Position numbers and translations under genes: made by a program. From positions 434,001 to 498,000 of the forward strand of contig NZ_CP065027.1 of the NCBI RefSeq assembly GCF_015711475.1: DNA of 64,000 nt, given 5' to 3'. The DNA is from Actinomyces trachealis. GTDB lineage: Bacteria; Actinomycetota; Actinomycetes; Actinomycetales; Actinomycetaceae. Of this stretch, positions 40,475 through 64,000 are shown one piece after another (within the stretch, counting starts at the first letter, position 1; the number at the start of each line of letters is the position of its first letter). The notes beneath the pieces are model-generated. The model was not told the DNA's origin. It searched no databases and saw only the letters and a program-made list of their open reading frames with translations.

Positions 40475-40607
40475 CACCCAGGGGCTAGCTGGTTGAGGAG
40501 CGCAGGCATCTCCCGGCTAGCCCCCATGGGCCCGCCCACACCTTGGAAACGTGCGGACGCCGCCCCTAAGAACCAACCGATTCAATGACCAATCGGAAGT
40601 AGGAACT

Positions 40608-44561
<3,954 letters not shown>

Positions 44562-44786: not shown

Positions 44787-47700
44787 ATGACCTTTGCGCC
44801 ACTGCGACGCATTGCCGCCAGTGTGGTGGGCACGCTATCGGTGGGTGTCGTTGTCATGGCACTCCTACATCCCGGCGTCGTGACCCGCGAGATCGATCTG
44901 CACGACGGAGGGGTATGGGTCACCAACCAGAACCTGCGTACCGTTGGTCACCTCAACTACCCGGCGCACGTGATCGATGGTGGCCTACGTGCTGCCTCTA
45001 GCAAATTCGATGTCTCCCAGGAGGCCGGTACGGTCTTCGTGGCCGACCATGAGTCTGGTGCCTTCACCCAGGTGGACGTGGCCAAGAACATACTGCTCGC
45101 AGCGGTACAGAACGCAGATGACATGCAGCTTGGTGGGGACCGCCTGGGCATCGCAGACCCCGCCAGCGGCTCAGTGTGGGTTATGCCAGCTTCGCAGCAG
45201 AGCGAATACGACCCAACAGTCACGGAGCCGACGCTCCGGGATGAGAAAGGGGCGATCCTGGCCATGGGCTTGGAGGGCTCCGCTCATATCGTCTCCCCAG
45301 AGACCAAGCGCATCACCACCATCACCCCGGCAGGTAGCCAGCAAGATCAACACACTACTCCGTTGCCGGAGCTGGGGACCAACGCGGACCTGCAGGTGTC
45401 CGCGGTCGGCAAGCAGACAGTGGTCCTGGACCGCACTTCCGGGACACTGGTGCGCCAGGACGGCTCCACCGTGCAGCTGACCGGCACCGAGCTGCAGCTC
45501 CAGATGCCGGGGCCAGAGTCAACTGAGGTCCTAGTGGCTTCCTCCGAGGCGCTCTTGCGTGTGGGCCGGGACGGTAAGGTCACGCCGGTCCCCAAGCGCA
45601 GTCCGGGCGGCAAGCCTGCTCGTCCCGCCCGTATGCGCTCCTGTGTCTACTCCGTCTGGAGTGGCCAAGGTGGTTACCTACGTGACTGCACCAATGACGC
45701 CGATGACCGCAACGAGGACCGGACGGACCTCAACGCAGCGGACACTGCGGTCTTCCGTATAAACCGTGAAGTGATCGTCCTGAACAACACGCAGGACGGC
45801 GGTGTATGGCTGCCCGACGAAGACATGGTCAAGGTCGACAACTGGGACCAGATCAACTCCGACCTCAAAACGGATGACGAGAAGCAGGACGACACTACCC
45901 GCACCGACCAGGAGTCCCCCGCAGAGCGGCGCGAGCAGAACACCCCACCCGACGCCGTCGACGACGAATTTGGGGTGCGCCCAGGGCGGTCAGTCAACCT
46001 GCCAGTGATCGGCAATGACACCGATCCTGACGGCGACGTGCTCGTGGCCAGCCCCACCACCCAGCCGGAACTCGGTGAAGTGGTACAGGTGCGTGACGGC
46101 GCTGCCCTGCAGGCACGCATCAGGCCTGACGCCACCGGCTCCAGCAGCTTTGTCTACGAACTCTCCGACGGCGGCAGCACTGATACCGCTAATGTCAGCC
46201 TCACGGTGCATCCTTGGGAGGTTAATGAGGGTCCTAAGCAGACCCGCGTCTCCACCATGATCCTGGGACAAGGGGCCCGCGGCACCACCAATGTCGCCGG
46301 GGACTGGATCGACCCTGACGGTGATGCCGTCTATCTGGAGTCCGTGGCCTTTCCCTCCGGACTGGATGTCACGTGGCGTGCGGACGGCACCATCACGGTG
46401 CATGACCTGGGCCAAGGCGCAGGGGTTAAAGAACTCACCGTCACCTACTCTGATGGCAGGAAGACCACCGAGGGCACGATGCGGGTGGACGTGCGTGGCG
46501 CTGAGAACATCGCCCCAGTGGCGAACGGTGACCACCTTGTGGTGGCACAGGGACAGACTGCGCAACTAGACCCTAGGGTGAACGACACTGACGCCAACGG
46601 GGACACCTTGCGCGTCGCCTCTATCTCCCAGCCCACCACCGGCATCAGCGCCAGCCTGGACCCAGACCTCTCGATTGTCTCCGTGACAGGGCAGACCCTG
46701 GGTACCTATTACCTGGAGTACAACCTCACCGATGGTCCGACAGCCACCACCGGTTTCATCCGCGTGGACGTGGTGGCTTCAGACTCTCAGGGGCTGCCGG
46801 TGGCGCAGGATGATGTGACCACCCTCCCCGCAGGGGGCGAGGCCCTGGTAGACGTCTTGGCTAATGACTCCGACCCCACCGGCGGCGTGCTCGTGGCCCA
46901 GTCCGTGCAAGTGCCTGAGGGATCCCAGTTGGTGGTGGCTCTGCTGGAGCACCACATTCTGCGCATCACCGCACCTGCCGGTTTAACTTCGAGCCAACAG
47001 ATCACCTACACCGTGGCTAACGGTGTGGGTACCTCGCAGGGACAGGTCATGGTGATCCCCGCCCCGCCGGTGTCCTCAACAGAGCCCCCTGTTCTCACCG
47101 ACGACAACCTGGTGGTGCGGGTGGGAGACATCGGCTCTGTGCGGGTCTTGGACAATGACCGCTCTCCAGCCGGACTCAAGCTCACCGTGGACGACACGCT
47201 CCAACACACCTTTGAACCGGCCACCGCCAGCCCCTTCGTCTCCGACGGTGTGGTTCGTGTGCGCGCTGGGGACAAGCCCGGCACAGGCACCCTGGTCTAC
47301 ACGGTGCACGATGCGGCTGGGAACGTCGCCTCCGCGCAGGTCAATGTAAGCGTCGTGGCCCTGGACGAGCACACGAACACGGCGCCGCACCCCCAGGACG
47401 TCACCGGTTGGGCTGTGGCTGGACAGACCGTCAAGATTCCCGTACCCCTGACCGGTATCGACTCTGAGGGTGACTCCGTGACCCTGGTAGGCGTGTCTTC
47501 CTCACCAAAGCTAGGAACCGTGGAGGTGGACGAGAACAACCTGAGATACACAGCGGGCCAGAAGTCCGCTGGCACCGACGTGTTCACCTACACGGTCAAG
47601 GATCGACTCGGCAAGACCGCCACCGCCACAGTGCGTGTGGGTGTGGCTGCCGCCGCTACCACCAACCAGCGTCCGGTGGCCGTGCCTGACCTGGTCAACG

Positions 47701-50700
47701 TGCGGCCCGCCAAGAAGGTCAGCGTGCCGGTGGTGGGCAACGACGTCGACCCCGACGGCGACCCGCTGGAGTTGCGGCAAGACATGGTCTTTGGTTCTGA
47801 CCCAGCACTGCACGTGGAGCCGCGCGGCAACAGCGTTGTCCTTACGGCTCCGGAGACCGAAGGGACCTACACGCTCCAGTACGGGCTCACCGATTCCCGC
47901 TCTGAGCCGGTGACCGGGCTGCTGACCGTCGTCGTCTCCGCGAATGCGCCGCTGCTCGCCCCGATCGCCAGGGATGACAGCGTGGCGGTCGCTGATGCTG
48001 CGCAGGCCAGCTCCGTGAGCGTGAACGTGCTGGACAACGACATTGACCCAGACGGCGACGTCCAGGCAGATGAACTCACCACTGCGGACGACGGTGTGAC
48101 CGTTAGCGGCGGCACGCTCACAATTCCGGTCAACGAGACCGCACGGTATGTGCTCTACACCCTCACCGACCCGGACGGGCTGACCTCGTCCGCCGTCGTG
48201 CTGGTCCCAGGCTCAAAGGTCAATGCTCCCGAGGTCGATGTGACCAAGGCCCGGGGGCTGCAGGTCAAGGCAGGGGAGAGCATCACCATCCCGCTGGCGG
48301 ACTATGTGATCACCCGCGAGGGTCACTCGGTGCAGCTGACTGACGCAGCCAAGGTTTCCGCCTCCTTAGGCTGGGACGGCACCCCACTGGTCAAAGACGC
48401 CACCACTCTGATCTTCGGTGCCGCCAAGGACTACTCCGGCCCCAGCTCAGTAACCTTTGAGGTCACCGACGGCAAGGACCTCAACGACTCTGACGGGCGA
48501 GTGGCCAGCCTGACCCTCCCCATAACCGTGCTGCCGACAGGCAACCAGCCTCCCACCATCACCCCCACTAATATTGAGGTGGCTGCGGGAGACGACGCTG
48601 TCACGGTGGATGTGAGTAAGTGGGTGGCTGATCCTGACGGTGAGGATCCAGCCTCCATGACCTATTCAATTGAGCCAACCCTCAATGGGGCCAGCGCCTC
48701 CCTGTCCGGGACCACCCTGTCCGTGAGTGCCGACGCCGCAACCACGCAAGGCGCAGCAGGCCAGCTCAATGTGACAGTCAAAGACGCTGCGGGTGCTACC
48801 GCCATGGGTACCGCCCAGGTCACCGTGGTGGCTTCCACCAAGGAACGGATCCAGGTCTCACCGATCTCCGTGACTACCAACGCTGGCCAGACTGTGAGCG
48901 TGGACGTGTCCCAGTCAGCCTCTAACCCTTTCCCAGACACCCCGCTGTACGTGGCGGGCACCCCTACGGCCTCCGACGGTGGCAGCGTGAGCGTCAACGG
49001 CACCACCGTGTCTATCACGCCGCCTGCGGGCACCAACGGCACGACCACCGTCACCTTCCGTCTAGGGGACAAGACCAAGGATGCCGCACGTGAAGTTGAG
49101 GGGACCATCCAGGTCACCGTCAAGGACAAGCCTGCGGCCCCCACTGCGGTCACCGCCGCCTCGGCGGCCGCTAGCACCGCCACGATCACCTGGTCCGCGG
49201 GCGCCGCCAATGGGGATCCCATCACCGGTTTCACGGTCTTTGATGAGACCCAGGGCGACTCCAAGCAGTGCGGGCAGGTCACCACTTGCCTGGTGGAGGG
49301 CCGTAAGAACGGTGTGGACCATACTTTCCACGTGGTCGCCACCAATGGGGTAGGGGACTCCCCGGCCTCCGCCAGCGCCACCACCAATATTGACGTGGTG
49401 CCCGGGATAGTCACTGCCCCGACTGGGACCCCTGGAGACAACCAGGCATCCTTCACCTGGAACGCTCCAGAAAATGAGGGATCGGCGATCAGCGGCTACA
49501 CCGTCTACCTATCTGGGCCCGACGGCGTAAAAGTGAATACGGTCACCACCACCTCCACCACCTTCACGGGGCTGCGGAACGGCGCCGCCTACACCGCCAC
49601 CGTCACTGCTACCAACAAGAAGGGCACCAGCAAAGCTTCTGGGGCCTCGAAGGCCGTGACCCCTTACGGGCGCCCAGAGCCTGTGCCCCACCTTGAGGCG
49701 CAGGCAGCTTCCCTAGGGACCGGCGGCAGCAGTGACCGCGTGAACGTCTTCTGGACCGCCCCGGGCGGCAACGGGCGGGAGATTGCCTACTACACCCTGA
49801 GCTGGCCGGGGGGCTCCAAACGGGTTGAGGGCGCCACCTCCACCACCATCGAGTCTGTGAGCACCTCCAACAGCCAGGTGGAATTCAAGATCACCGCTAC
49901 CAATGACGCCGCGGCACCCGAGGCACACACCTCCTCCGAGACCAGCACCTCCACCTGGGTTGTAGGTATGCCGCCGAGCCCGACGGGCAGCGGGCTGCAA
50001 GCTACTGGGCAAGGCGCTTCCATCAATCTGGACGCCTCCGTGCAGGACGGCAACGGCTGGCGTGCCTCTGACCTGATCCTCCAATGGTCCACCAACGGCG
50101 TCGATTGGAAGCGCCTTGATGACCTGACCGGCAATGGGCTAACCGTAGGCAACGCCGCCTCCGTCACCGTGCGGGCCTGCGGCAGCAAGACCGGCTCAAC
50201 CGTCTGTTCCCAAGCAACAACCGTCGGCTCTGTCACCCCTTACGAGCCGCCCACCTCCCCGGCTGTCAGCTGTGCCGCAGGCGCGGTGGGACAAGTCAGG
50301 TGCAACTGGAGCGGGGCGAAGGACGGGGGCGCTACCGCCGAGCTGTTGCTTGACGCCAACGGCTCCACTGAGCGGATCGGCTTACAGGCCTCCGGTGAGC
50401 GCACCCTCAACGTGGGTGAGGGCGGGACCGGCAAGCTCTGCGTCTATGCGGTACGGCCAGGGCAGAACGCGACGGCCTCTGGGAACGGGGGCAGCTCCCC
50501 GTGCGCCAGCGCCACGGCCCCCAGGTATGAGCGGAAGGTTGGCATGTTCAGGGGGCAGTACCTCAACTGCTCTATCGGTGCCTGCGCAGGTGTCAAGGCC
50601 TGGCGCGTTGGGGTGGACCTGCAGGGATGGCCCCCTAACAGCAGTGTCACCTGCAGCGGCCTGTGGGCTGGACAACACGAGACCACGACCTTGTCCGTGG

Positions 50701-50813
50701 ACGGCAATGGCAACTACCACGGCGAACCCAAATGGAGCGGCCCCTGGAAAGGCTCCCTGTTGAGCGCCGATCCCAACGACGTTGAGGGTACGCCTTGGTA
50801 CACCTGCAGGTAG
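44787..50813 (+). CDS. Giant modular surface protein with tandem Ig/cadherin-like repeats and FN3 domains
   Basis: 2008 aa. A short cytoplasmic start and one N-terminal helix (residues about 10-33) leave everything else outside. Residues about 40-330 form a repeat region with strands like propeller blades. From about 400 to 1180, eight modules of about 96 residues each carry an acidic loop such as GNDTDPDGDV. Two or three more Ig-like modules follow, then three FN3 domains (about 1448-1724). The cysteine-containing C-terminus has pairs such as SCAAGAVGQVRCNW and ends WYTCR. No sortase signal is seen; the N-terminal helix is the anchor. ACAGGAG precedes the ATG at 44787. It is first in the operon and corresponds to fn3 of the bifidobacterial PFNA cluster. 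Confidence 0.9.
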   Translation: MTFAPLRRIAASVVGTLSVGVVVMALLHPGVVTREIDLHDGGVWVTNQNLRTVGHLNYPAHVIDGGLRAASSKFDVSQEAGTVFVADHESGAFTQVDVAKNILLAAVQNADDMQLGGDRLGIADPASGSVWVMPASQQSEYDPTVTEPTLRDEKGAILAMGLEGSAHIVSPETKRITTITPAGSQQDQHTTPLPELGTNADLQVSAVGKQTVVLDRTSGTLVRQDGSTVQLTGTELQLQMPGPESTEVLVASSEALLRVGRDGKVTPVPKRSPGGKPARPARMRSCVYSVWSGQGGYLRDCTNDADDRNEDRTDLNAADTAVFRINREVIVLNNTQDGGVWLPDEDMVKVDNWDQINSDLKTDDEKQDDTTRTDQESPAERREQNTPPDAVDDEFGVRPGRSVNLPVIGNDTDPDGDVLVASPTTQPELGEVVQVRDGAALQARIRPDATGSSSFVYELSDGGSTDTANVSLTVHPWEVNEGPKQTRVSTMILGQGARGTTNVAGDWIDPDGDAVYLESVAFPSGLDVTWRADGTITVHDLGQGAGVKELTVTYSDGRKTTEGTMRVDVRGAENIAPVANGDHLVVAQGQTAQLDPRVNDTDANGDTLRVASISQPTTGISASLDPDLSIVSVTGQTLGTYYLEYNLTDGPTATTGFIRVDVVASDSQGLPVAQDDVTTLPAGGEALVDVLANDSDPTGGVLVAQSVQVPEGSQLVVALLEHHILRITAPAGLTSSQQITYTVANGVGTSQGQVMVIPAPPVSSTEPPVLTDDNLVVRVGDIGSVRVLDNDRSPAGLKLTVDDTLQHTFEPATASPFVSDGVVRVRAGDKPGTGTLVYTVHDAAGNVASAQVNVSVVALDEHTNTAPHPQDVTGWAVAGQTVKIPVPLTGIDSEGDSVTLVGVSSSPKLGTVEVDENNLRYTAGQKSAGTDVFTYTVKDRLGKTATATVRVGVAAAATTNQRPVAVPDLVNVRPAKKVSVPVVGNDVDPDGDPLELRQDMVFGSDPALHVEPRGNSVVLTAPETEGTYTLQYGLTDSRSEPVTGLLTVVVSANAPLLAPIARDDSVAVADAAQASSVSVNVLDNDIDPDGDVQADELTTADDGVTVSGGTLTIPVNETARYVLYTLTDPDGLTSSAVVLVPGSKVNAPEVDVTKARGLQVKAGESITIPLADYVITREGHSVQLTDAAKVSASLGWDGTPLVKDATTLIFGAAKDYSGPSSVTFEVTDGKDLNDSDGRVASLTLPITVLPTGNQPPTITPTNIEVAAGDDAVTVDVSKWVADPDGEDPASMTYSIEPTLNGASASLSGTTLSVSADAATTQGAAGQLNVTVKDAAGATAMGTAQVTVVASTKERIQVSPISVTTNAGQTVSVDVSQSASNPFPDTPLYVAGTPTASDGGSVSVNGTTVSITPPAGTNGTTTVTFRLGDKTKDAAREVEGTIQVTVKDKPAAPTAVTAASAAASTATITWSAGAANGDPITGFTVFDETQGDSKQCGQVTTCLVEGRKNGVDHTFHVVATNGVGDSPASASATTNIDVVPGIVTAPTGTPGDNQASFTWNAPENEGSAISGYTVYLSGPDGVKVNTVTTTSTTFTGLRNGAAYTATVTATNKKGTSKASGASKAVTPYGRPEPVPHLEAQAASLGTGGSSDRVNVFWTAPGGNGREIAYYTLSWPGGSKRVEGATSTTIESVSTSNSQVEFKITATNDAAAPEAHTSSETSTSTWVVGMPPSPTGSGLQATGQGASINLDASVQDGNGWRASDLILQWSTNGVDWKRLDDLTGNGLTVGNAASVTVRACGSKTGSTVCSQATTVGSVTPYEPPTSPAVSCAAGAVGQVRCNWSGAKDGGATAELLLDANGSTERIGLQASGERTLNVGEGGTGKLCVYAVRPGQNATASGNGGSSPCASATAPRYERKVGMFRGQYLNCSIGACAGVKAWRVGVDLQGWPPNSSVTCSGLWAGQHETTTLSVDGNGNYHGEPKWSGPWKGSLLSADPNDVEGTPWYTCR

Positions 50814-50863
50814 TCCTGCCCCAGCCCGACTTGACACCAGACCGAGCAGAGAGAGCGTCCGAT

Positions 50864-51829
50864 ATGCCTATGACCCAGGAGAACGCGACCTGGTTCGCAG
50901 ATACCTTCTCCCGTATTGTTGACAACGTTGGTTTGGCGTTGCTTGGCAAGACGGACATCATCCGCTTGGCGCTAACCACCATGCTCGCTGAGGGCCACCT
51001 GCTGCTAGAGGACGCCCCCGGCACTGGCAAGACTGCCCTGGCCCGTGCCCTGGCCGCCACCGTGCAGGGCACCCACTCCCGGATCCAGTTCACCCCTGAC
51101 CTGCTGCCCAGTGACATTACGGGCGTGACCATCTATGACCAGAAGACCGGCTCCTGGGACTTCCACCCAGGCCCTGTCTTCGCTTCCATCGTGTTGGCCG
51201 ATGAGATCAACCGTGCCTCACCCAAGACCCAGTCTGCGCTGTTGGAGGTTATGGAGGAGTCCCAGGTGACTGTGGACGGGGTGCGTCATGAGGCCGGGCG
51301 TCCCTTCATGGTGATCGCCACCCAGAACCCGGTGGAACAGGCCGGCACCTACAAGCTTCCCGAGGCGCAGCTGGACCGTTTCCTGATGAAGACCAGCATC
51401 GGCTACCCCGAGGAAGAGGACTTCATAGAGGTGCTGGCGGGCTCAGCCGCTCCGGACCGCTCCAAGCAGCTCGGCGCCGTGATCGCCTCCCACGCCGTCG
51501 CCTCTATGGCGGACCTGGCTGCCGAGAACCACGTGGAGCGCGCTGTCCTGACATACATCACCCGCCTGGCCCGCGCCACCCGAGACTCCGCCCAGACCCG
51601 CATTGGTGTGTCCACCCGTGGCGCAATCGCCATGACCCGCGCGGTCAAGGTTTGGGCTGCCGCCCAAGGCCGCCCTTACGTCCTGCCTTCAGATGTCAAG
51701 GACCTGGCTGTGGTGGTCTGGGCGCACCGCCTGGTGATGGACCCTGACGCCGAGTTTGCCGGGACCACTGCCCGCGACATTGTGGCCCAGGCTCTCGCCG
51801 AGGTTCCAGCGCCACAGAGCCGCTCCTGA
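50864..51829 (+). CDS. MoxR-family AAA+ ATPase
   Basis: A 321-aa chaperone-like ATPase. Walker A EDAPGTGKTALARAL is near residue 48, Walker B VLADEINRASPKTQSALLEVMEE near 112, and sensor-type ATQNPVEQAGTYKLPEAQLDRF near 157. MoxR proteins work with DUF58/von Willebrand-type partners to assemble or activate complexes at the membrane, and such a partner is encoded 28 bp downstream. The start ATG 50864 has a GAGAGAG site; an ATG six bases later is possible. The gap after the giant gene is 50 bp. Confidence 0.95.
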   Translation: MPMTQENATWFADTFSRIVDNVGLALLGKTDIIRLALTTMLAEGHLLLEDAPGTGKTALARALAATVQGTHSRIQFTPDLLPSDITGVTIYDQKTGSWDFHPGPVFASIVLADEINRASPKTQSALLEVMEESQVTVDGVRHEAGRPFMVIATQNPVEQAGTYKLPEAQLDRFLMKTSIGYPEEEDFIEVLAGSAAPDRSKQLGAVIASHAVASMADLAAENHVERAVLTYITRLARATRDSAQTRIGVSTRGAIAMTRAVKVWAAAQGRPYVLPSDVKDLAVVVWAHRLVMDPDAEFAGTTARDIVAQALAEVPAPQSRS

Positions 51830-51857
51830 GCCACCGCCTCCAGGAGACACCGGAGCC

Positions 51858-53207
51858 ATGACCAAGCAAACCAAGGACACCCCCAAGCCGAGACGCCGCA
51901 GGCGTGAGCAATCGTTCCACCAGGTAGGTCGGCTCAAGAAGGCTACCCGCAGACACCTAAACACGCTCAGGGTGTGGTTGGCGTATACAGGAACCGAAGT
52001 CAAGCAGGCCGCTGCCGCCAGCTCAGTGGCCGGTCCGGTGCTGCGGTGGCTGGAACGGGTAGGTGACGTCATCACCCCCCTAGGACGTTGGAGCTTGCTA
52101 GCTCTGCTGCTGTCCCTGCCCACTGCCGTAGCCACCCACTGGCAGGAGGCTTGGGCAGTCACTCTGGTGCTCGCCACCATGCTGCTGCTGGCCCTACCTA
52201 CCGTGATCGGCCGCCGCTCCTACGAGGTCGTCGTCTCTCTGGCCGCCAACCGGGTCACCGTGGGGGAGGCAGCGTTTGGTGGGGTGCGGCTGACCAATTC
52301 CTCCCCCCGCAGCGTCGGCAGTGCCAGCGTGGAACTGCCAGTCGGCACCGGCCTGGCGGTATTCAACGTGCCTAGGCTGGCGGGCAAGACTAGCCACGAG
52401 GAGGTCTTCACTGTCCCTACGCGCCGACGCGGCGTGATCATCGTGGGCCCTGCGACATCTGTGCGCGGAGACCCCTTAGGGCTGCTGCGCCGAAAGCAGC
52501 GTTGGAACGAGCCGATAGAGCTGTTCGTACACCCCCGCACCATCACCATCGACACTGAGGCCATCGGCTTCATCCGTGACATTGAGGGCGCGGTCACCCA
52601 GGAGCTGTCCTCCTCCGACGTCTCCTTCCACGCCCTGCGCGACTACATCCCCGGCGATGACCGCCGCAACGTCCACTGGCGCTCCACCGCCCGCACCGGC
52701 CGCCTCATGGTGCGCCAGTTCGAGGAGACCCGCCGTTCCCATCTGCTGGTGGTCCTGGATCTGGACGCAGAGGCCTGGCACAGCGCAGATGAGTTTGAGA
52801 TCGGCGTGTCCTGCGCCGCCTCACTGGTGCTCGCCGCATACCGCGCTGGCCGCGAGGTGAGCCTAGTGACCCAGGACGGCATGCCCGTGGGCCCCAACGC
52901 CATGCGGGCCCTGGACGCCATCACGCGCCTGGAGCAGGTCCGCACCACCAAGGACCTCAGTGCCCTGGCCCGCCAGGCTGCCAGGGACGTGCCCCAGGCC
53001 TCCGTGGCTGCCCTGGTCACCGGCTCCGCCCTGCCCGCCGTCCAGCTCCACCGGGCTCACTGCGAGCTGCCCTTAACGGCTTACCCAATCGGGCTACGCA
53101 TTGACCAGGGCGCACCGCTGCGCTCTACGCAAATTGGTGGGCTGCGCTTGTTCACGCTAGGCGCCTTGGAACCCCTGCCCCAGGCTATGAGGCGGGCCGC
53201 CCTGTGA
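51858..53207 (+). CDS. DUF58 membrane protein
   Basis: 449 aa. A basic N-terminal cytoplasmic tail (KPRRRRREQSFHQ) of about 75 residues precedes two transmembrane helices (about 78-115). A beta domain follows (RRSYEVVVSLAANRVTVGEA), then the DUF58 core DVSFHALRDYIPGDDRRNVHW, containing the signature HxLRxYxxGDxxRxIxW. A vWA-like fold follows (LLVVLDLDAEAW). It is the usual partner of MoxR ATPases. GGAG lies before ATG 51858. Its stop overlaps the next GTG by 4 bp. Confidence 0.95.
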   Translation: MTKQTKDTPKPRRRRREQSFHQVGRLKKATRRHLNTLRVWLAYTGTEVKQAAAASSVAGPVLRWLERVGDVITPLGRWSLLALLLSLPTAVATHWQEAWAVTLVLATMLLLALPTVIGRRSYEVVVSLAANRVTVGEAAFGGVRLTNSSPRSVGSASVELPVGTGLAVFNVPRLAGKTSHEEVFTVPTRRRGVIIVGPATSVRGDPLGLLRRKQRWNEPIELFVHPRTITIDTEAIGFIRDIEGAVTQELSSSDVSFHALRDYIPGDDRRNVHWRSTARTGRLMVRQFEETRRSHLLVVLDLDAEAWHSADEFEIGVSCAASLVLAAYRAGREVSLVTQDGMPVGPNAMRALDAITRLEQVRTTKDLSALARQAARDVPQASVAALVTGSALPAVQLHRAHCELPLTAYPIGLRIDQGAPLRSTQIGGLRLFTLGALEPLPQAMRRAAL

Positions 53208-56928: not shown

Positions 56929-57812
56929 GCACTGTGCACCCTGATCACAGCCAGATGGACCGATCCATCCAGCCACACCTACAGGTCACGTGGGGTGCGG
57001 TCACCAACACCGGCCTGGTGCGGGAGCACAATGAGGACGCCTTCCTGGCAGCCTCCCCGGTATTCCTTGTGGCCGATGGCATGGGCGGTCACCGCTACGG
57101 CGCCCAGGCATCCAAGCTAGCCCTGTCCACCTTTGCGCCCCTGGTGGGGCAGGAGTTTGTCTCCGCTGCCGAGCTGGACAGTGCCCTGTCTGAGGCCGCC
57201 ATCTCCGTCAACACCCTGGGGCAGGACTCAGTGGCCCCTGGCTCCACCCTGACCGGCCTGGTCTTGTCCACACAGGGCCAGCGCCCCTGCCTGAGGGTGG
57301 TCAACATTGGGGATTCCCGCACCTACCAGCTCTCCCGGGGCGTCCTCTCACAGGTCACCAAGGACCATTCTCACGTGCAGGAGCTCATTGACGCGGGCGT
57401 AATTAGCGCAGAAGATGCCCGCAACCGCCCAGACCGCAGTGTCATCACCCGTGCCTTGGGTGCTGGCTCCGGACCGGTGGTCTGCGCGGACCAGGTGCTG
57501 CTGCCAGCCTGCCAGGGGGACCGCTATCTGGTGTGCTCGGATGGGCTCAGCGGCCTGGTGCGGGATGCCGCCCTGGCAGCGGTTCTCAGCGAGCAGGTGT
57601 CCCCGCAGGACGCGGCTGAGAGGCTGTTGGTGCTGGCGCTTGAGGCTGGCGGGCATGACAACATCACTGTGGTTGTCGTAGACGTCGTTGAGGCAACACC
57701 CGGCTGGGGTGCCGGGAGCGTGGATGGGAGCACCATTGCTCACCAACGCCCTGACGAGGACACTGTGCCTCGTGAGGTTGTGATGGACTCTTTGCCTAAG
57801 GGGCAGCCATGA
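56925..57812 (+). CDS. PP2C-type Ser/Thr protein phosphatase
   Basis: 295 aa. All metal-binding motifs are present: VREHNEDAFL (residues about 33-42), VADGMGGHRYG near 50, VNIGDSRTY near 126, LVCSDGLSGLV near 205, and GGHDNITVVVVD near 246. It is soluble, with a short acidic tail. It should reverse phosphorylation by the kinase encoded two genes downstream, and thus control FHA binding. The GTG start and ATGA junction with the next gene show tight coupling. Confidence 0.95.
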   Translation: MSTVHPDHSQMDRSIQPHLQVTWGAVTNTGLVREHNEDAFLAASPVFLVADGMGGHRYGAQASKLALSTFAPLVGQEFVSAAELDSALSEAAISVNTLGQDSVAPGSTLTGLVLSTQGQRPCLRVVNIGDSRTYQLSRGVLSQVTKDHSHVQELIDAGVISAEDARNRPDRSVITRALGAGSGPVVCADQVLLPACQGDRYLVCSDGLSGLVRDAALAAVLSEQVSPQDAAERLLVLALEAGGHDNITVVVVDVVEATPGWGAGSVDGSTIAHQRPDEDTVPREVVMDSLPKGQP

Positions 57813-59341
57813 GTGTTGCACGCTGGTGGCCCGGTGAGGTCAAGGTCGCTGTCAGCGGCACCGGGGCCCTAGCGTTTGACGGCGCCCGCGAGATCCTGGA
57901 CCCACTGTGGCAGCAGCTAGACGCCGGAGCTAGCCTGTCTGACCTGCTGCGCCAGCTGGTGATGGCTTATGACGGCTCGGTACTGGCCCTGCCGGACTTC
58001 CTGCTGGTGGTTTCCCACGAGTCCGGGTGGCGGGCGGTGGCCCGGGGTCGGTTCCGGTTGCTGGACGCTAGCGGCGCTGTACTGCTGTACGCGCCTAACC
58101 CGGTGGCTTGGGAGGAGGTACAGGTGCCTGCAGGCACAGATCTAGTCTTTGACCTGGCGGGCCCCACGATCCAAGAGACGGGGTGGCCGCTGCGGGCAGG
58201 CGTGGTCCCGGCTGGGCGTCTCAGTCTGGATGCCGCAAGCAAGGCTGAATCTGCCCTGGAGTGCGAAGTAGAGTTTGCAGCACCTGAGACGTCAGCGCCC
58301 ACACCTGCTACCAGTGCAAATGTGCTGGGGTCCCCCGTTGTATCGGCCCCAGAGCCGACTCCAGTCCCAGGCACCACGCCGGTGTTCGACGCCGCCGAGG
58401 AGCCGCAGCCGCTGGGGAAGGAAATGGCCTCTTCGGCGACCTTGGGTCCTGAGCACCTGGACCTCATTGGTGTCGACGATGCTGCCCCGCCAGAGACACC
58501 AGCAGAGGAGTTCAGTGCCTACGCCCACCACTACGGTGACCATACCATCGCTGTGAACGTCGCTGAGGCGGCGATACATCACCGAGACACTGAAGCTGGC
58601 ATTGTCACTGCAGTGCCCAAGCCCGGCCAACCTGCTCCGCCTGTCAGCATCTCTGTGGCAGCAGCCGCACAGTCCCCGGTGCCGGGCACTCCACCGGTCA
58701 CGGTGCTTTCCGAGGCGTTTCAGCCCGCCGTCGAAGCAGCTTTGTCAGCGGACCCAGTTGCAGGGGATGAGGCCGACTGGCTGCACGACGGGCATACTGT
58801 GGCAGCCGCCAAACTACGGCGTTCCCGCCCGGGTGCCCACGTCGCTGAGCCGACCCCACAGGCTGGCACCGTGGACACTCAAGGAACCGTGCTAGCGGTC
58901 CTGTGTCCAGCAGAGCATCCCAACACAGTCACTGCCTTGCGCTGCCGGGTCTGCGGCATGCCCGTAAGTGGCTCCAGTGTGTGGGTCCCTCGGCCGGTGC
59001 TGGGGCGTCTGCGCACCTCCTCCCAAGAGGAGGTGATGCTTAGCTCCGACGTCATCATTGGGCGCGCTCCGCAGGCGACGCCAAGGCCCGGCGAGGCTAT
59101 GCCCCAGTTGCTCGCAGTGGCATGCCCCGACAAAGCCATCTCTAAGACTCACTGCGCGGTGCGTGTCGACGGCTGGGAGCTGCTCGTTGAGGATCTCGGC
59201 TCCACCAACGGGACCTTCCTGCTGCGCCGGGGTGAGGCCCCCCGGCGCGTCACCCGAGGTACCCCGGAACCCCTGCTGCTTGGGGATGTGCTGGACCTGG
59301 CGGACTCAGTGACCGTCACGGTGGAGGCTCTCGATGCTTGA
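57809..59341 (+). CDS. FHA-domain protein with zinc-ribbon-like motif
   Basis: 510 aa. The N-terminal about 150 residues form a conserved-looking alpha/beta domain (WWPGEVKVAVSGTGALAFDG, LLVVSHESGWRAVARGRFRL). A long Ala/Pro/Glu-rich disordered middle follows. At about 365-390 two cysteine pairs, LCPAEHPN and CRVCGMPV, suggest a small zinc ribbon. A C-terminal FHA domain runs about 405-505 (VIIGRAPQATP, AISKTHCAVRV, EDLGSTNGTFLL). It is probably a phospho-dependent scaffold. It overlaps the kinase start by 8 nt. Confidence 0.88.
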   Translation: MSVARWWPGEVKVAVSGTGALAFDGAREILDPLWQQLDAGASLSDLLRQLVMAYDGSVLALPDFLLVVSHESGWRAVARGRFRLLDASGAVLLYAPNPVAWEEVQVPAGTDLVFDLAGPTIQETGWPLRAGVVPAGRLSLDAASKAESALECEVEFAAPETSAPTPATSANVLGSPVVSAPEPTPVPGTTPVFDAAEEPQPLGKEMASSATLGPEHLDLIGVDDAAPPETPAEEFSAYAHHYGDHTIAVNVAEAAIHHRDTEAGIVTAVPKPGQPAPPVSISVAAAAQSPVPGTPPVTVLSEAFQPAVEAALSADPVAGDEADWLHDGHTVAAAKLRRSRPGAHVAEPTPQAGTVDTQGTVLAVLCPAEHPNTVTALRCRVCGMPVSGSSVWVPRPVLGRLRTSSQEEVMLSSDVIIGRAPQATPRPGEAMPQLLAVACPDKAISKTHCAVRVDGWELLVEDLGSTNGTFLLRRGEAPRRVTRGTPEPLLLGDVLDLADSVTVTVEALDA

Positions 59342-61040
59342 GCGTTCTCGTCCAGTCCCCCCGGAGATCCCGGGCGCCACCTATACACGCTTCCTGGGAG
59401 CCGGAGGCTTCGCTGACGTCTTTCTGTACCGCCAAGCCGCTCCGGCACGAGAAGTGGCGGTAAAGGTCATCCGCTCTGAGGCGCGGCTTGAGGCCAGAGA
59501 TCACTTCAAGCACGAGACCGACATTATGGCCCTGCTGTCGTCTCACCCATCCGTGGTTTCCGTGTATGACGCTGGGCAGACCAAGGACCAGCGCGGCTAC
59601 ATCGTCATGGAGTTCTGCCCGCCACCACATATGGGACAGCTCTGCAAGCAGGAGCCACCGTCCCTGGACCGGGTACTCAAGTACGCGATTCAGATCGGTT
59701 CCGCCGTGGAGACCATCCACCGTAGCGGCTATCTGCACCGGGATATCAAGCCCGCCAACATCCTCATGACCGCCTTCAACCGGCCAGCCCTGACGGACTT
59801 CGGCATCGCCGTGCCTATTGAGGCGCAGGTGGTCAATGATGACTTCGGTGGTGCCTCCCCGCCTTGGGCGCCATACGAGCAGCAGCTTGGTGACGAGGCC
59901 CTCACCCCCGCGGCTGACGTCTACGCCTTAGGCGCCACCATCTACAACATGATCACCGGGCACGCCCCACATGTGGATCGGAGCCCTGGGGCTGCAAACG
60001 AGCGTGCGGATATGCTCCGCCGCGCCCAGTTGGGGTTGATCCCACCGATCACCCGCGTCGACGTGCCCGAGCAGTTGCACCGGGTCCTGCGCACTGCCAT
60101 GGCTCCGCAGCCCGCTTACCGGTACCAGACTGCCCTGGCCCTGGTCAGGGACCTGCAGAAGATCCAACGAGACCAGAACCTTACGGTCACTGAGGCTGAC
60201 GTCATGGAGCAGGCCCCGCTGGACACGGCTGGGGTCGGGGAACCCGACCGCACGATCCTGCGCCCAGTGACCGCTATCGACCCCTACCAGGGCACTCAGG
60301 ACGCCTTGGTCGCTGACGCCACCCGTTTTAAGCCGCGCATCATCATCCCGCTGGCTGAGGTGGAGGAACAGACCAGCGCCGACACGCTGCTGGGCAGCCC
60401 CGGCCAGCTATTCAGTGCCACTGGTGGGGACTTGGGCCACACTGGCGGCGGTGTCTTGGCTCCTTCCACGGAGATGACCGGCTCACGCCACAAGCCCACA
60501 GACTGTAGCGGCGAGAAGATGGCGCCACCGGCCCCAGCCACCCCTGCTCTGAGCCGGGATGGGGAAGCTAGCGTCCTTGAGGTCGGCGCCTCTGATCCGG
60601 ACGTTGTCGGCCAACCGCCCTCCCGGCGGCTGGTGCTGGGGCTGGCAGCTGCAGTGGCGTTGGTTCTCGTGCTCGGAGGCATTGGAGTGCGGTCCTGGCT
60701 GCGCGATGAGGGAGGCATCCAGAAGGTTTCCACCTCCGCCAGCCCCGAGGCTGATGTCGTCGGGCCGGGCGGCGAGGTGGCTCAAGACGCCGGAGTCACC
60801 AACCTGCAGTTGACGGTTAACGGCAAGCAGGTTACTGCCACCTGGGACTATGAGGGTCCCGCTGGCGCCATCTTCCTCTACTCGGTGGTTGACCCCGCCA
60901 ATCAGCGCCAGCTCCAGGAGACCAGTGAGCACACCGCCACTGTTGACGCTGTCCCTGGTCGGACCTGCGTCGAGGTGGTGGTACGGAGCGCCTCCGGATC
61001 ATCTTCCGTCCCCACAACCAAGTGCCAGGAGACACCATGA
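59334..61040 (+). CDS. Receptor Ser/Thr protein kinase with FN3-like ectodomain (Pkb2-like)
   Basis: 568 aa. The kinase domain spans about residues 17-275: LGAGGFADVFLY, lysine in VAVKVI, LHRDIKPANIL and DFGIAV are intact. The APE motif reads APYE (PPWAPYEQQ), an atypical form. A linker of about 150 residues with threonine-rich stretches (possible autophosphorylation sites) leads to one helix near 430 (VLGLAAAVALVLVLGGIGV). The outer about 110 residues look like one FN3/Ig fold (LQLTVNGKQVTATWDYEG, CVEVVVRSASGSS). It corresponds in position and type to pkb2 of PFNA clusters. ATGA overlap with the next gene. Confidence 0.9.
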   Translation: MLERSRPVPPEIPGATYTRFLGAGGFADVFLYRQAAPAREVAVKVIRSEARLEARDHFKHETDIMALLSSHPSVVSVYDAGQTKDQRGYIVMEFCPPPHMGQLCKQEPPSLDRVLKYAIQIGSAVETIHRSGYLHRDIKPANILMTAFNRPALTDFGIAVPIEAQVVNDDFGGASPPWAPYEQQLGDEALTPAADVYALGATIYNMITGHAPHVDRSPGAANERADMLRRAQLGLIPPITRVDVPEQLHRVLRTAMAPQPAYRYQTALALVRDLQKIQRDQNLTVTEADVMEQAPLDTAGVGEPDRTILRPVTAIDPYQGTQDALVADATRFKPRIIIPLAEVEEQTSADTLLGSPGQLFSATGGDLGHTGGGVLAPSTEMTGSRHKPTDCSGEKMAPPAPATPALSRDGEASVLEVGASDPDVVGQPPSRRLVLGLAAAVALVLVLGGIGVRSWLRDEGGIQKVSTSASPEADVVGPGGEVAQDAGVTNLQLTVNGKQVTATWDYEGPAGAIFLYSVVDPANQRQLQETSEHTATVDAVPGRTCVEVVVRSASGSSSVPTTKCQETP

Positions 61041-61801
61041 GTGAGATTCAGGCCCAGGAGGGGTCGCAGGAGGACCCGGAGGGGCGGGCTGCGTCCCTAG
61101 CCGTCGACTTCTGTGGAGAGGTGTACCAGGTTAAGCCTGGTGAGGTCTTCCGCGTTGGTCGTGAAGGTGACCTGGCCATCGACGACAACCCCTTTCTGCA
61201 CCGAAGCTTCTTGGTGCTGGAGCATGCCCACGGCCTGTGGTGGCTGTCGAATGTCGGCTCCCGTCTGGCCGCTTCCGTGGCTGATTCAACCGGCTCCTCC
61301 GTGTCCCACGTAGCTCCCGGGTCACGAGTGCCACTGGTATTCCCCACCATGACCATCGTGTTCTCTGCCGGAGCCACCACCTACGAGATCCTCCTGGAGG
61401 TGCCTTGCCCTGCCTATGACGCCAGCATGGCTGTCAGCACCAGTACAGACATGGAAACCACCATCGGTGCCGTCAGTCTCACCGCCAGCCAGCAACTGCT
61501 GATCTTGGCCCTGGCCGAGCCTTGGCTGCGGCGGGTCGGCTCCGGACCCGTGGACCTGCCCCGCAATGTTGACGCCGCCGCCCGCCTGGGCTGGAGCCTG
61601 ACCCGTTTTAACCGCAAGCTGGATAATGTCTGCGACAAGCTCGACCGGGTAGGCGTTAAGGGCCTGCGTGGGGGACCGCAGTCTCACGCCACCTTCCGGC
61701 GCGTCGCCCTGGTGGACTATGCGTTGGCGGCCCGTTTGGTCACGGCTGAGGATCTGCCCCTGCTGGATGCCGCCGCGGCGGATAGTAAGGAGAGCAGATG
61801 A
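61037..61801 (+). CDS. FHA-like protein with C-terminal helical DNA-binding-like domain
   Basis: 254 aa. Residues about 20-115 form a forkhead-associated-like fold (VFRVGREGDLAIDDNPFLHR, SFLVLEHAHGLWWLSNVGS). The usual SxxH is weak (LHRSFLVL) and the NG motif is replaced by NVGSR, so phosphopeptide binding is uncertain. Residues about 140-245 are helical: LTASQQLLILALAEPWLRR, AARLGWSLTRFNRKLDNVCD, resembling a winged-helix or LuxR/SARP-type domain. It may act as a regulator tied to the kinase. The start is ATG 61037; a GTG at 61022 is less likely. Confidence 0.78.
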   Translation: MSEIQAQEGSQEDPEGRAASLAVDFCGEVYQVKPGEVFRVGREGDLAIDDNPFLHRSFLVLEHAHGLWWLSNVGSRLAASVADSTGSSVSHVAPGSRVPLVFPTMTIVFSAGATTYEILLEVPCPAYDASMAVSTSTDMETTIGAVSLTASQQLLILALAEPWLRRVGSGPVDLPRNVDAAARLGWSLTRFNRKLDNVCDKLDRVGVKGLRGGPQSHATFRRVALVDYALAARLVTAEDLPLLDAAAADSKESR

Positions 61802-64000
61802 AGCTGCGCCTGACTGTCACCGCGCCTTCCGGCGTCGCCCGGAATCTCCAGGTGACTGCGGACGCTACCGCCACGATTGGCGACGTCGCTGCGGGCCTCG
61901 CAGGCGCAGGTCCCTCCCGCGCCAGCGCCCCGGTGGACCCGCGCACGGTGACCTTGGAGGTGCTGGAGGCTGGGGGTCCTGTGTCCACCACCGGTAGGGT
62001 GGGCGCTTCAATAGGTGGCGGCGTGCAAGGTCGCATGCTTGACCCGGCACTGCACTTAGACGAATCCGGGCTGCGCTCCGGCGCTATCGTGACGGTCCGT
62101 TCCGTAGGGCCTTCCAGGCGTGAAAAGGCGCAGGAGGGGGCAGTGGTCACCGTTTTGAGTGGTCCGCATGCGGGTGAGTCCTATCCGGTGCCAGTTGGTG
62201 CCACAGAGATCGGCCGCTCCTCACATTGTGACATCACCTTGGGCAGGGACCCGCTTGTCTCCAAGCACCACCTGCGTCTTACCGTGGGGTCTACGGTGGA
62301 GGTCAGTGATTTGGGCTCCGCCAATGGGGTGCTGGTGGGGGAGATGAAAGTCCAACGCCAAAGTATTTCGAGCACCGAGGTGGTCACCATCGGCGGTACC
62401 ACCTTGCGGGTCTCCCGGGTGGTGGCGGCCTCGGAGATCCCGGGTAGTGCTGACACCACGGACCTGGGACACAACCGCTCCCCGCGCGTGGTGCCGCGCA
62501 CGCCCGCGATCACCATTGAGTTGCCCAATGCGCCACGGCCTAAGGACAAGGCCCGCTTCCCGATCCTGGCCATGATGGCTCCCTTGGTTATGGGCACCGC
62601 CATGTACTTGATGAGCCGCAATCCGCTGAGCCTGATCTTTGTGGCCCTGAGTCCGATCATCATGATCGGCAACTGGATTGACCAGCGGATTCGGAATAAA
62701 CGGGCCTATAAGCATGAGGTGGAGGTCTTCTCCGAGGCTATCGAGCAGGCCGGTGAGGATTTGGAGGAGGCGCATAAGCGTGAGCGGGCCGCGCGGCTGG
62801 CGCAGTACCCATCCACGGAAGAGGTTATGGCTGACGCCTTGCTGATGGGGTCGCTGCTGTGGTCTCGCCGTCCCGAGCACCCTGAGTTTCTGCAGCTGCG
62901 GCTGGGCTTGGGTTCGGATGTGCCGCGCACAGAGCTGGATGGCGGCAATGACGCCGATGCGGTGCCGGTGCACAAGGAGATGATCCGGGAGGTACAGGCT
63001 CGCAATGAGTTGATCGCTGAGGTTCCGATTGTCACCAACCTGCGGGAGGACGGTTCTGTGGGCCTGGCGGGACGCCGGGACCTGCTTGACGGCGTCGCTC
63101 AGGCGGTTTTGGCACAACTGGTGTTACTGCACTCCCCGGCAGAGTTGGCCCTGGTGTGCCTCACAGACGCGCGGGGTAGGGGCCGTTGGGGATGGTTGGA
63201 GTGGCTGCCGCACACCGCCTCACCACATTCACCCATCGGCTCCATGCAGCTGGCCTGCGACCCCACTACGGGCACGGCCCTACTGGCCCGCCTGGAGGAG
63301 CTGATCTCTATTCGGGGTGGCTCCGGCACCCCTGGTCTGCGCGGCCCGGCGGATCATGAGGACGACTCCGGTGACGCGCCCACGGTGCCAGCCGTTGTGG
63401 TGCTGGTGGATGGTGCGGGAGTTGACCGGGCCCGTCTGAACCGGGTGGTGGAGCAGGGTCCGGACGTGGGGGTGCACGTTGTCTGGGTTGCGGACCACGT
63501 CAAGGACCTGCCAGCTGCTTGCCGTACTTTTGTGGATGTGCGGGCTGATGGCACCACCGTGGGTTTTGTGCGCCGTTCGCGTTCTAGCACCGACGTCGTG
63601 CCTGAGCATCTGAGTCTGGAGCGTAGCCAAGGTCTGGGGCGGGTGCTGGCGCCGATCGTGGACGCTGGCGTGCCCGTGGACGATGAGTCTGATCTGCCGC
63701 GCGCCATATCCTTCGTGACCTTAACGGGTGAGGAGCTGGCGGACTCGCCAGAGGCTCAGGTGATGCGCTGGAAAGCTAACCATTCGGTGATTGACCGCAG
63801 CGGGACCTTCCCACTTAAGCACCCTGTGTCCTTGTCCGCCCTGGTGGGTCAGGGGGCTGAGGGGCCCATCTCCTTGGATCTGCGGGTGCATGGGCCACAC
63901 GCCTTGGTGGGCGGTACCACGGGTGCTGGTAAGTCGGAGTTCCTGCAGTCCTGGGTGTTGGGCATGGCCCAGGCACTTTCTCCGGACCGGGTGACCTTCC
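61798..64000 (+). CDS. FHA-FtsK/SpoIIIE ATPase, EssC/EccC-like secretion motor (partial, runs off the right edge)
   Basis: The frame is open from ATG 61798 to the window end, 734 codons without a stop. Residues 1-100 form a ubiquitin- or FHA-like cap (LRLTVTAPSGVARNLQV). A clear FHA follows at about 120-205 (EIGRSSHCDITLG, VSKHHLRL, SDLGSANGV). Two adjacent transmembrane helices lie at about 258-300 (FPILAMMAPLVMGTAMYLM, SLIFVALSPIIMIGNWI). A long FtsK N-domain then reaches the first Walker A GGTTGAGKSEF near residue 705. N-terminal FHA plus two helices plus FtsK modules is the EssC layout of type VII secretion. The C-terminal ATPase modules are outside the window. Confidence 0.88.
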   Translation, partial: MKLRLTVTAPSGVARNLQVTADATATIGDVAAGLAGAGPSRASAPVDPRTVTLEVLEAGGPVSTTGRVGASIGGGVQGRMLDPALHLDESGLRSGAIVTVRSVGPSRREKAQEGAVVTVLSGPHAGESYPVPVGATEIGRSSHCDITLGRDPLVSKHHLRLTVGSTVEVSDLGSANGVLVGEMKVQRQSISSTEVVTIGGTTLRVSRVVAASEIPGSADTTDLGHNRSPRVVPRTPAITIELPNAPRPKDKARFPILAMMAPLVMGTAMYLMSRNPLSLIFVALSPIIMIGNWIDQRIRNKRAYKHEVEVFSEAIEQAGEDLEEAHKRERAARLAQYPSTEEVMADALLMGSLLWSRRPEHPEFLQLRLGLGSDVPRTELDGGNDADAVPVHKEMIREVQARNELIAEVPIVTNLREDGSVGLAGRRDLLDGVAQAVLAQLVLLHSPAELALVCLTDARGRGRWGWLEWLPHTASPHSPIGSMQLACDPTTGTALLARLEELISIRGGSGTPGLRGPADHEDDSGDAPTVPAVVVLVDGAGVDRARLNRVVEQGPDVGVHVVWVADHVKDLPAACRTFVDVRADGTTVGFVRRSRSSTDVVPEHLSLERSQGLGRVLAPIVDAGVPVDDESDLPRAISFVTLTGEELADSPEAQVMRWKANHSVIDRSGTFPLKHPVSLSALVGQGAEGPISLDLRVHGPHALVGGTTGAGKSEFLQSWVLGMAQALSPDRVTF

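Follow-up and report, generated by a model that had tools for sequence, protein, structure and literature searches.

The window analysed here is a 64,000-nucleotide stretch of Actinomyces trachealis DNA, C1:434001-498000 of the single 2.53-Mb chromosome contig, and it ends in a row of ten genes that runs from a giant Ig/FN3 surface protein, of the type known from the PFNA operon of bifidobacteria, to the ATPase of a type VII secretion system (T7SS). As listed in Table 1, all ten genes are on the plus strand, each is one uninterrupted frame, and they lie where an initial annotation of the window had placed them. The window cuts the ATPase gene at residue 734, and the 3' continuation was read as stretch L008 (window position = L008 + 61500), in which the complete protein of 1,491 amino acids ends at L008:4773 (L008:298-4773). 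The operon is genuine and extends beyond the 3' end of the window. With the starts that we chose, the successive junctions from Ig/FN3 to ATPase measure +56, +28, -4, -1, -4, -4, -8, -4 and -4 nt, and the start/stop overlaps of 1-8 nt described earlier from DUF58 onward are present at 7/7 junctions. A scan for promoter-like and terminator-like sites was uninformative (4 promoter-like sites versus 2.1 expected, 5 terminator-like sites versus 7.1 expected). Pfam scans, which for the Ig/FN3, MoxR, DUF58 and RDD-FHA proteins ran from upstream starts, matched only RDD and no FHA model in the fifth protein, and had no match at all in the ninth.

Table 1. Genes of the operon and its flanks; positions are those of the window unless preceded by L008.
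Feature	Position	Strand	Basis
rpoC, left flank, outside the system	40551..44561	+	Pfam RNA_pol_Rpb1 domains
Giant Ig/cadherin/FN3 surface protein, 2,008 aa, PFNA FN3 type	44787..50813	+	Pfam Big_9, Cadherin_4, fn3
MoxR AAA+ ATPase	50870..51829	+	Pfam AAA_3 7.7e-62
DUF58 protein, one hydrophobic segment	51858..53207	+	Pfam DUF58 2.5e-13
TgpA-type membrane protein, transglutaminase fold, Asp at residue 500 for the expected catalytic Cys	53204..55642	+	Pfam Transglut_core, TgpA_N
RDD-FHA: RDD membrane protein with C-terminal FHA, phosphothreonine residues intact	55642..56928	+	Pfam RDD; FHA from conserved residues
PP2C/PPM phosphatase, tail with DGSTIAHQ and DEDTVPR	56925..57812	+	Pfam PP2C_2
Zn-FHA: Zn-ribbon-like protein with C-terminal FHA; linker with GDHTI and DGHTV	57809..59341	+	Pfam FHA 2.2e-8
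Receptor-type Ser/Thr kinase, hydrophobic segment at residues 434-452, juxtamembrane DRTILRP	59334..61040	+	Pfam Pkinase 1.1e-34
FHA2: degenerate FHA and conserved FNRK core	61037..61801	+	Residues; no Pfam match
Type VII ATPase (FHA-FtsK), first 734 of 1,491 aa in the window	61798..64000	+	TIGR03928, EccCa/b, structure models
641-aa protein, WXG-like N-terminus by eye	L008:4877-6802		No Pfam match
430-aa T7SS_signal protein	L008:6802-8094		PF21725, E 5.2e-8
207-aa protein	L008:8124-8747		No Pfam match
188-aa protein	L008:8744-9310		
WXG100 protein, 96 aa	L008:9464-9754		TIGR03930 51.7 bits, cut-off 44.85
476-aa protein, eight hydrophobic segments	L008:9889-11319		
LRV_2 protein, 438 aa	L008:11433-12749		
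rpsL, rpsG, fusA, tuf, downstream flank	After the LRV_2 gene		

The type VII identity of the locus is firm. In agreement with the initial annotation, the ATPase is an EssC-like motor: the EssC model TIGR03928 scores 549 bits over residues 226-1487 (curated cut-off 778), EccCa 361 bits (cut-off 509) and EccCb 297 bits (cut-off 347), whereas the FtsK DNA-translocase model PRK10263 matches only locally, with 60 bits. Because all three type VII models score below their curated cut-offs, the protein is best described as a divergent member of the EccC/EssC type. A T7SS-signal gene lies 2 kb and a WXG100 gene 4.7 kb 3' of the ATPase gene. A WXG100 gene past the end of the window had been predicted, and the case that had been named as contradicting the proposal, a plain DNA translocase without secretion partners, did not occur. 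The other partners suggested for that region, EccB, EccD, EccE, mycosin, EsaA and EssB, were not seen; these, and also EssA and a free EsaB, had no Pfam match among the ten window and ten L008 proteins, which were not searched family by family.

The part of the ATPase inside the window comprises a ubiquitin-like fold (residues ~1-104), an FHA domain (~119-206), a membrane segment and the first P-loop. The FHA residues are kept in 97-102 of the 103 rows of an alignment of relatives. The N-terminus thus appears to be a fused ubiquitin-like fold followed by a phosphothreonine-competent FHA domain, which would be a new point. The ubiquitin-like assignment comes from structure comparison only: with VIA-align 2 many ubiquitin-like folds tie, talin and plexin domains included, while Foldseek returned nothing at E<=0.001 for the model of this domain, and for the two-domain model the displayed rows were nearly all FHA domains. 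Pfam left the window ATPase unmatched at this end and found YukD in 2/32 relatives (best E 0.044).

Relatives of the ATPase are present in 213/396 genomes of the order at E<=1e-90 and in 53/296 genomes of the phylum at E<=1e-40, counts that include the genome of the window itself as well as T7SS ATPases that are more distant. Gene neighbourhoods were counted around the best 80 of at least 588 ATPase relatives (at least 593 stretches), and since these are the best matches, the figures for these named loci favour close relatives. Where enough upstream DNA was available, a same-strand gene was found for FHA2 at 35/72 named loci, for the kinase at 37/70, for Zn-FHA at 38/67, for PP2C at 37/67, for RDD-FHA at 48/66 and for TgpA at 46/58. 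All six occur together at 30/58 loci, and in 28 of those 30 the six genes and the ATPase stand in the order of the window, so that the conserved gene order expected by the initial annotation is indeed found in relatives; DUF58 precedes TgpA in 26/26 of these loci with DUF58 in view. Exact 4-nt overlaps, counted in the 30 full loci and also in the window, G008 and G257 by a script that takes the in-frame start nearest the stop and thereby favours small gaps, occur from DUF58-TgpA to FHA2-ATPase at 23/29, 15/28, 24/30, 7/33, 25/33, 15/33 and 19/31 junctions. Overlapping starts and gene order are kept across several families, and because the order and the 4-nt overlaps recur in relatives, a chance origin of the layout is very unlikely. 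ATPase loci of this kind occur, for example, in Arthrobacter, Microbacterium, Cellulosimicrobium, Nocardioides, Dietzia and Dactylosporangium, and the nearest named row to the window ATPase in the tree is Actinomyces mediterranea. A contig labelled Sporosarcina beigongshangi, from Bacillota (L098), holds a copy of the operon resembling those of Arthrobacter, likely an assembly contamination, and the locus of Luteimicrobium album (L156) has several ATPase-matching frames in a row.

The signalling proteins keep the residues on which phosphorylation and its recognition depend. The HRD, DFG and Lys residues of the kinase are kept in 47/47 rows and the PP2C catalytic residues in 41/41, with the phosphatase scoring 177 bits against the Stp1 model (cut-off 230). 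The FHA residues are kept in 46-47 of 47 RDD-FHA rows and in 42-43 of 43 Zn-FHA rows, the Cys pair of the latter in 30/43. FHA2 has lost the phosphothreonine positions and retains FNRK in 42-44 of 44 rows together with a conserved C-terminal half; this core may resemble a winged helix. A relaxed threonine motif, [DEG]xT[ILV], taken from the window linkers and counted in relatives without the window, occurs 100 times in Zn-FHA proteins, 50 times in kinases and 30 times in PP2C tails, compared to 22.4, 16.7 and 6.3 after shuffling. The strict form [DE]xT[ILV]x[RK] occurs 36 times in 49 kinases (32 carriers, shuffled 4.5), 20 times in 42 phosphatases (shuffled 2.5) and 14 times in 45 Zn-FHA proteins (shuffled 3.5), usually as DRTILR or DATVLR in the kinase, DEDTLPR in the phosphatase, and WEKTVMR or DGETIMK in Zn-FHA. 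It is not enriched in the nine other families counted (Ig/FN3, MoxR, DUF58, TgpA, RDD-FHA, FHA2, ATPase, T7SS-signal and WXG100), and neither are Ser, Ala and reversed forms in the kinase, phosphatase and Zn-FHA families. The initial annotation had proposed that a kinase/phosphatase balance gates FHA docking onto the motor. The intact catalytic and phosphothreonine-binding residues and the common Thr motif are in keeping with this, and it is from these sequence features that we infer the gating itself.

Among the PFNA-type proteins, MoxR has its Walker A and B residues in every row that has letters there (23 of 29), and DUF58 is a vWA-like domain. The best match of the TgpA-type protein in the PDB is TgpA 6g49. 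In an alignment of the window protein with 61 relatives longer than 600 amino acids, two of them from Bifidobacteriaceae and shorter frames dropped, the His of the transglutaminase triad is kept in 44/62 rows. The expected catalytic Cys is found in 0/62 (D51, E5, S4, Q1, A1), at a position that was deduced from the alignment to Pseudomonas aeruginosa TgpA 6g49, which begins one residue after it, and from the spacing of the TgpA triad. According to PMC3507681, which shows residues 396-467, P. aeruginosa TgpA has a conserved triad. We infer that the TgpA-type protein is a pseudo-transglutaminase, which may bind rather than crosslink.

For comparison with published systems, parts of two papers were available, one that defines T7SSc-j (Garrett, Higginson and Palmer 2024, PMC11217815) and one on the PFNA operon (PMC8430577), and the following statements hold for those parts. 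T7SSd, described from Olsenella and Bifidobacterium (PMC11217815), also belongs to Actinomycetota and has an FHA-bearing EssC-like ATPase with phosphothreonine residues, a receptor kinase, a WXG100 protein and a giant Ig-domain protein; a phosphothreonine-competent FHA on the ATPase, a kinase and WXG100 are all present at the window locus. The window locus differs from T7SSd in that the giant protein here is of the PFNA type (Big_9/FN3) and unrelated to the TsdI-like one of a Bifidobacteriaceae genome (G370), in that PP2C, RDD-FHA, Zn-FHA, FHA2, MoxR, DUF58 and TgpA are added, and in the ubiquitin-like fold that seems to be fused to the ATPase, whereas no ubiquitin-like protein was found in T7SSd. 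T7SSe and T7SSj, from Bacillota, share a kinase, a PPM phosphatase, a separate FHA protein and a large TsxI protein, and T7SSj also resembles the locus in its FHA-bearing ATPase with phosphothreonine residues; T7SSj has no TsxH, and none was recognised here. However, these systems are from another phylum and have a free ubiquitin-like TsxB, TsxJ (DUF6382-FHA in TseJ) and TsxK, none of which was recognised in the window locus. T7SSc, also from Bacillota, has an active-site kinase, a PPM phosphatase and a vWA-domain protein, but its ATPase is without FHA domains, and it has a free ubiquitin-like TscB and an EspG-like TscG (PMC11217815). With T7SSa/ESX the locus shares an EccC-type ATPase, WXG100 and a ubiquitin-like domain, which in T7SSa is on EccD, whereas EccB, EccD, EccE and mycosin were not recognised at the locus; unlike in T7SSb, where EssB is a pseudokinase, the window kinase has active-site residues.

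The PFNA operon, which has been studied as an immune-signal sensor, encodes a kinase, a giant Ig/FN3 protein, a MoxR-type AAA ATPase, DUF58 and a transglutaminase-fold protein, with prpC and fha in some species (PMC8430577). All five genes are found here, FN3-MoxR-DUF58-TgpA in the published order, and the kinase, first in the published operon, is eighth. The initial annotation had singled out the phosphatase, three FHA adaptors and the motor in one coupled unit; the phosphatase and FHA genes are not special to it, since prpC and fha can be part of PFNA operons, and genes for a kinase, a phosphatase and FHA proteins also accompany other T7SS (PMC11217815). The available text of PMC8430577 does not mention type VII, WXG100, ESAT-6 or FtsK, and that of PMC11217815 does not mention DUF58, MoxR, fibronectin or PP2C; as far as seen, neither describes a unit that joins the motor and its cargo genes to PFNA genes. 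A search of an open-licence library for T7SSd found only PMC11217815, and judged by titles and abstract openings, none of the papers retrieved for PFNA-type systems with type VII, or for type VII with FHA, kinase, phosphatase and Micrococcales, was evidently on their union. The gene content fits neither T7SSa/b nor the published T7SSd, and on balance we favour, with some reserve, a T7SS variant under phosphothreonine/FHA docking control that by gene content is unlike any published subtype compared.

In such a system, the kinase would sense an extracellular cue and phosphorylate Thr in [DE]xT[ILV]x[RK]-like motifs that its own juxtamembrane part shares with the tail of the phosphatase and the linker of Zn-FHA. 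These phospho-motifs would be bound by the FHA domains of the ATPase and of the Zn-FHA and RDD-FHA proteins, and the motor would thereby be assembled or licensed, which PP2C would reverse. The PFNA proteins, with MoxR as a remodelling ATPase, would form the envelope part, which elsewhere consists of EccB/D/E, EsaA/EssB or TsdI, with the pseudo-transglutaminase binding instead of crosslinking, and the WXG100 and T7SS-signal proteins would be the cargo. The giant Ig/FN3 protein would travel by Sec. Its export by the motor, one of the options proposed earlier, was not supported: it has a hydrophobic segment at residues 9-27, which makes Sec the simpler route, and Bifidobacteriaceae mostly keep the Ig protein without a close full-length relative of the motor.

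The latter was seen in a family (f72) that we take to be Bifidobacteriaceae on the basis of a 16S primer, which matches 17 f72 genomes and 2 of another family; of the 34 genomes drawn, the search covered 30 from genera g227 and g213 and left out four small ones. TgpA relatives are present in 24/30 at E<=4.3e-24 and in 25 at 1e-5, the 25th (G596) being short, weak and in a frame of 1,490 aa that looks unrelated, whereas a full-length close ATPase relative (E about 1e-137) is present in only 3/30 (G370, G426 and G547). Two genomes, G412 and G586, have more distant ATPase frames of 1,330 aa, treated as T7SSa, and that of G412 groups with the T7SSa of the window genome. In 29/30, a shorter frame (473-761 aa) matches the ATPase at its first P-loop region; FtsK-like frames of 626-661 aa in L175, L176, L181 and L182 have 42-46% identity to this region only. 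In 3/5 Bifidobacteriaceae clusters read, G370 (L179), G440 (L177) and G567 (L188), PFNA lies beside rpoC. The window Ig/FN3 protein shares domains with the PFNA protein of G370 (L179), which its profile matches with 893 bits.

We tentatively put forward, as a possibility that falls short of probable, that the PFNA operon supplies the envelope half of a T7SS subtype widespread in actinobacteria. This subtype would be switched by its own phosphothreonine code, with motifs on kinase, phosphatase and Zn-FHA and with FHA domains, one of them on the motor, as readers, and would have a ubiquitin-like subunit fused to the motor and a dead 'transglutaminase' that binds; PFNA-only bifidobacteria would then hold a motor-less remnant. 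PFNA-linked ATPases as one clade were rejected: on a quick tree of 63, the PFNA label, given wherever the retrieved stretch holds at least one of MoxR, DUF58 and TgpA, switches 12 times. This tree fits either a motor joining PFNA at this site or motor loss in bifidobacteria.

Several observations weigh against these readings. The strict motif was derived from flanks in relatives and then counted in largely the same relatives, with shuffle controls that ignore the relatedness of the sequences; it is carried by only 14/45 Zn-FHA proteins, the window itself has it in the kinase and phosphatase with only the relaxed form in Zn-FHA, and the relaxed form is not enriched in RDD-FHA (15 versus 9.7 shuffled). 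It is also missing from the kinases of L189 and L190, which are among the closest relatives of the ATPase, and for that reason its absence from 5/5 Bifidobacteriaceae PFNA kinases says little. None of nine families lies upstream of the ATPase at 5/58 named loci, and in a broader draw at least two of MoxR, DUF58 and TgpA were found at only 7/22 loci (G008, G208, G134, G097, G220, G171 and G257), some of the stretches ending early. At the 58 named loci with at least 8 kb in view, WXG100 lies downstream in only 22 and a T7SS-signal gene in 21, although other relatives may be located elsewhere or may have diverged too far to be found by profiles built from a single sequence. The 188-, 476- and 438-aa putative cargo genes downstream have no relatives in 103 stretches. 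Finally, because most Bifidobacteriaceae examined keep PFNA without a close full-length ATPase relative, PFNA is not an obligate part of a T7SS.

This last finding, with PFNA beside rpoC in three of the five clusters, would also fit two neighbours in one operon, that is, a T7SS and an independent PFNA envelope and signalling module, with kinase, phosphatase and FHA proteins serving PFNA and not the motor. The locus is flanked by rpoC on its upstream side and by rpsL on its downstream side; the same flanks on the same strand were found at G225, G268 and L128 (103 stretches checked, many too short), no MoxR, DUF58 or TgpA was seen in these three stretches, and they are among the ATPase loci without PFNA that speak for such independence. 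However, overlapping starts and order are preserved across several families, the ATPase itself bears an FHA domain with intact phosphothreonine residues, and in each of the three Bifidobacteriaceae genomes that hold a T7SSd-like ATPase (G370, G426 and G547) TgpA lies about 31-33 kb from it. We consider this explanation rather unlikely.

More doubtful still is a T7SSd with extra genes, in which the giant Ig protein is TsdI and the kinase TsdD, even though an FHA-bearing ATPase, a kinase, WXG100 and a giant Ig protein in an actinobacterium are what the available part of PMC11217815 describes. In genome G370, a kinase gene is followed by genes for a 147-aa protein with one segment, an Ig protein of 1,798 aa with a segment at either end, and an ATPase, a row that has the published T7SSd layout and resembles TsdD-TsdH-TsdI-TsdC; a separate PFNA cluster lies ~13 kb away on the opposite strand. 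The window Ig/FN3 protein matches the PFNA protein and has no significant similarity to the TsdI-like one (L178; BLASTP E 0.52), and with no C-terminal hydrophobic segment it also lacks the C-terminal transmembrane segment of TsdI; the giant Ig protein as TsdI was rejected. No TsdH-like protein was recognised in the operon, there being no small single-segment protein from Ig/FN3 to ATPase, although no TsdH profile search was made and the rest of the genome was not searched. The window ATPase is only 33% identical to that of the G370 row, which falls elsewhere in the ATPase tree, on a long branch whose placement is unsure. By eye, the G370 ATPase (L178:14255-18826) also starts with a ubiquitin-like region. 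A DNA translocase or conjugation-type motor, to which the FtsK/SpoIIIE domains of the FHA-FtsK protein might point, is hardly credible and was rejected, given EssC/EccC matches over its length, the weak match of the FtsK model, the WXG100 and T7SS-signal neighbours and the ubiquitin-like and FHA N-terminus.

In several loci, relatives of the downstream 207-aa gene lie close to T7SS-signal genes (18 frames in 15 stretches, counting the gene itself), and its product is possibly a chaperone or immunity protein. Eight T7SS-signal relatives had no convincing C-terminal toxin family, only sub-threshold hydrolase matches. Near C1:222-231 kb (stretch L009:7374-20000, G000:C1:222-235 kb), the genome of the window has another T7SSa, of the classical kind, whose EccC exceeds both cut-offs while its EccD match stays under the cut-off. 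On the opposite strand nearby, a frame of 896 aa or more, cut by the stretch, matches WXG100 weakly at its N-terminus (22.5 bits, cut-off 44.85). An ESX-type T7SS is reported in Actinotignum schaalii (PMC5720513).

The T7SS variant under FHA docking control that we favour would join the PFNA and type VII secretion literatures, neither of which mentions the other in the available parts of the papers compared. The enzymatic reading of the PFNA transglutaminase is called into question, the suggestion that phosphorylation may regulate T7SS becomes a prediction with named residues, and the ATPase N-terminus would be a place to search for the ubiquitin-like component that T7SSd reportedly lacks. Much of the gene order is shared by many related actinobacteria, and insight into one of the two systems may therefore help to explain the other.

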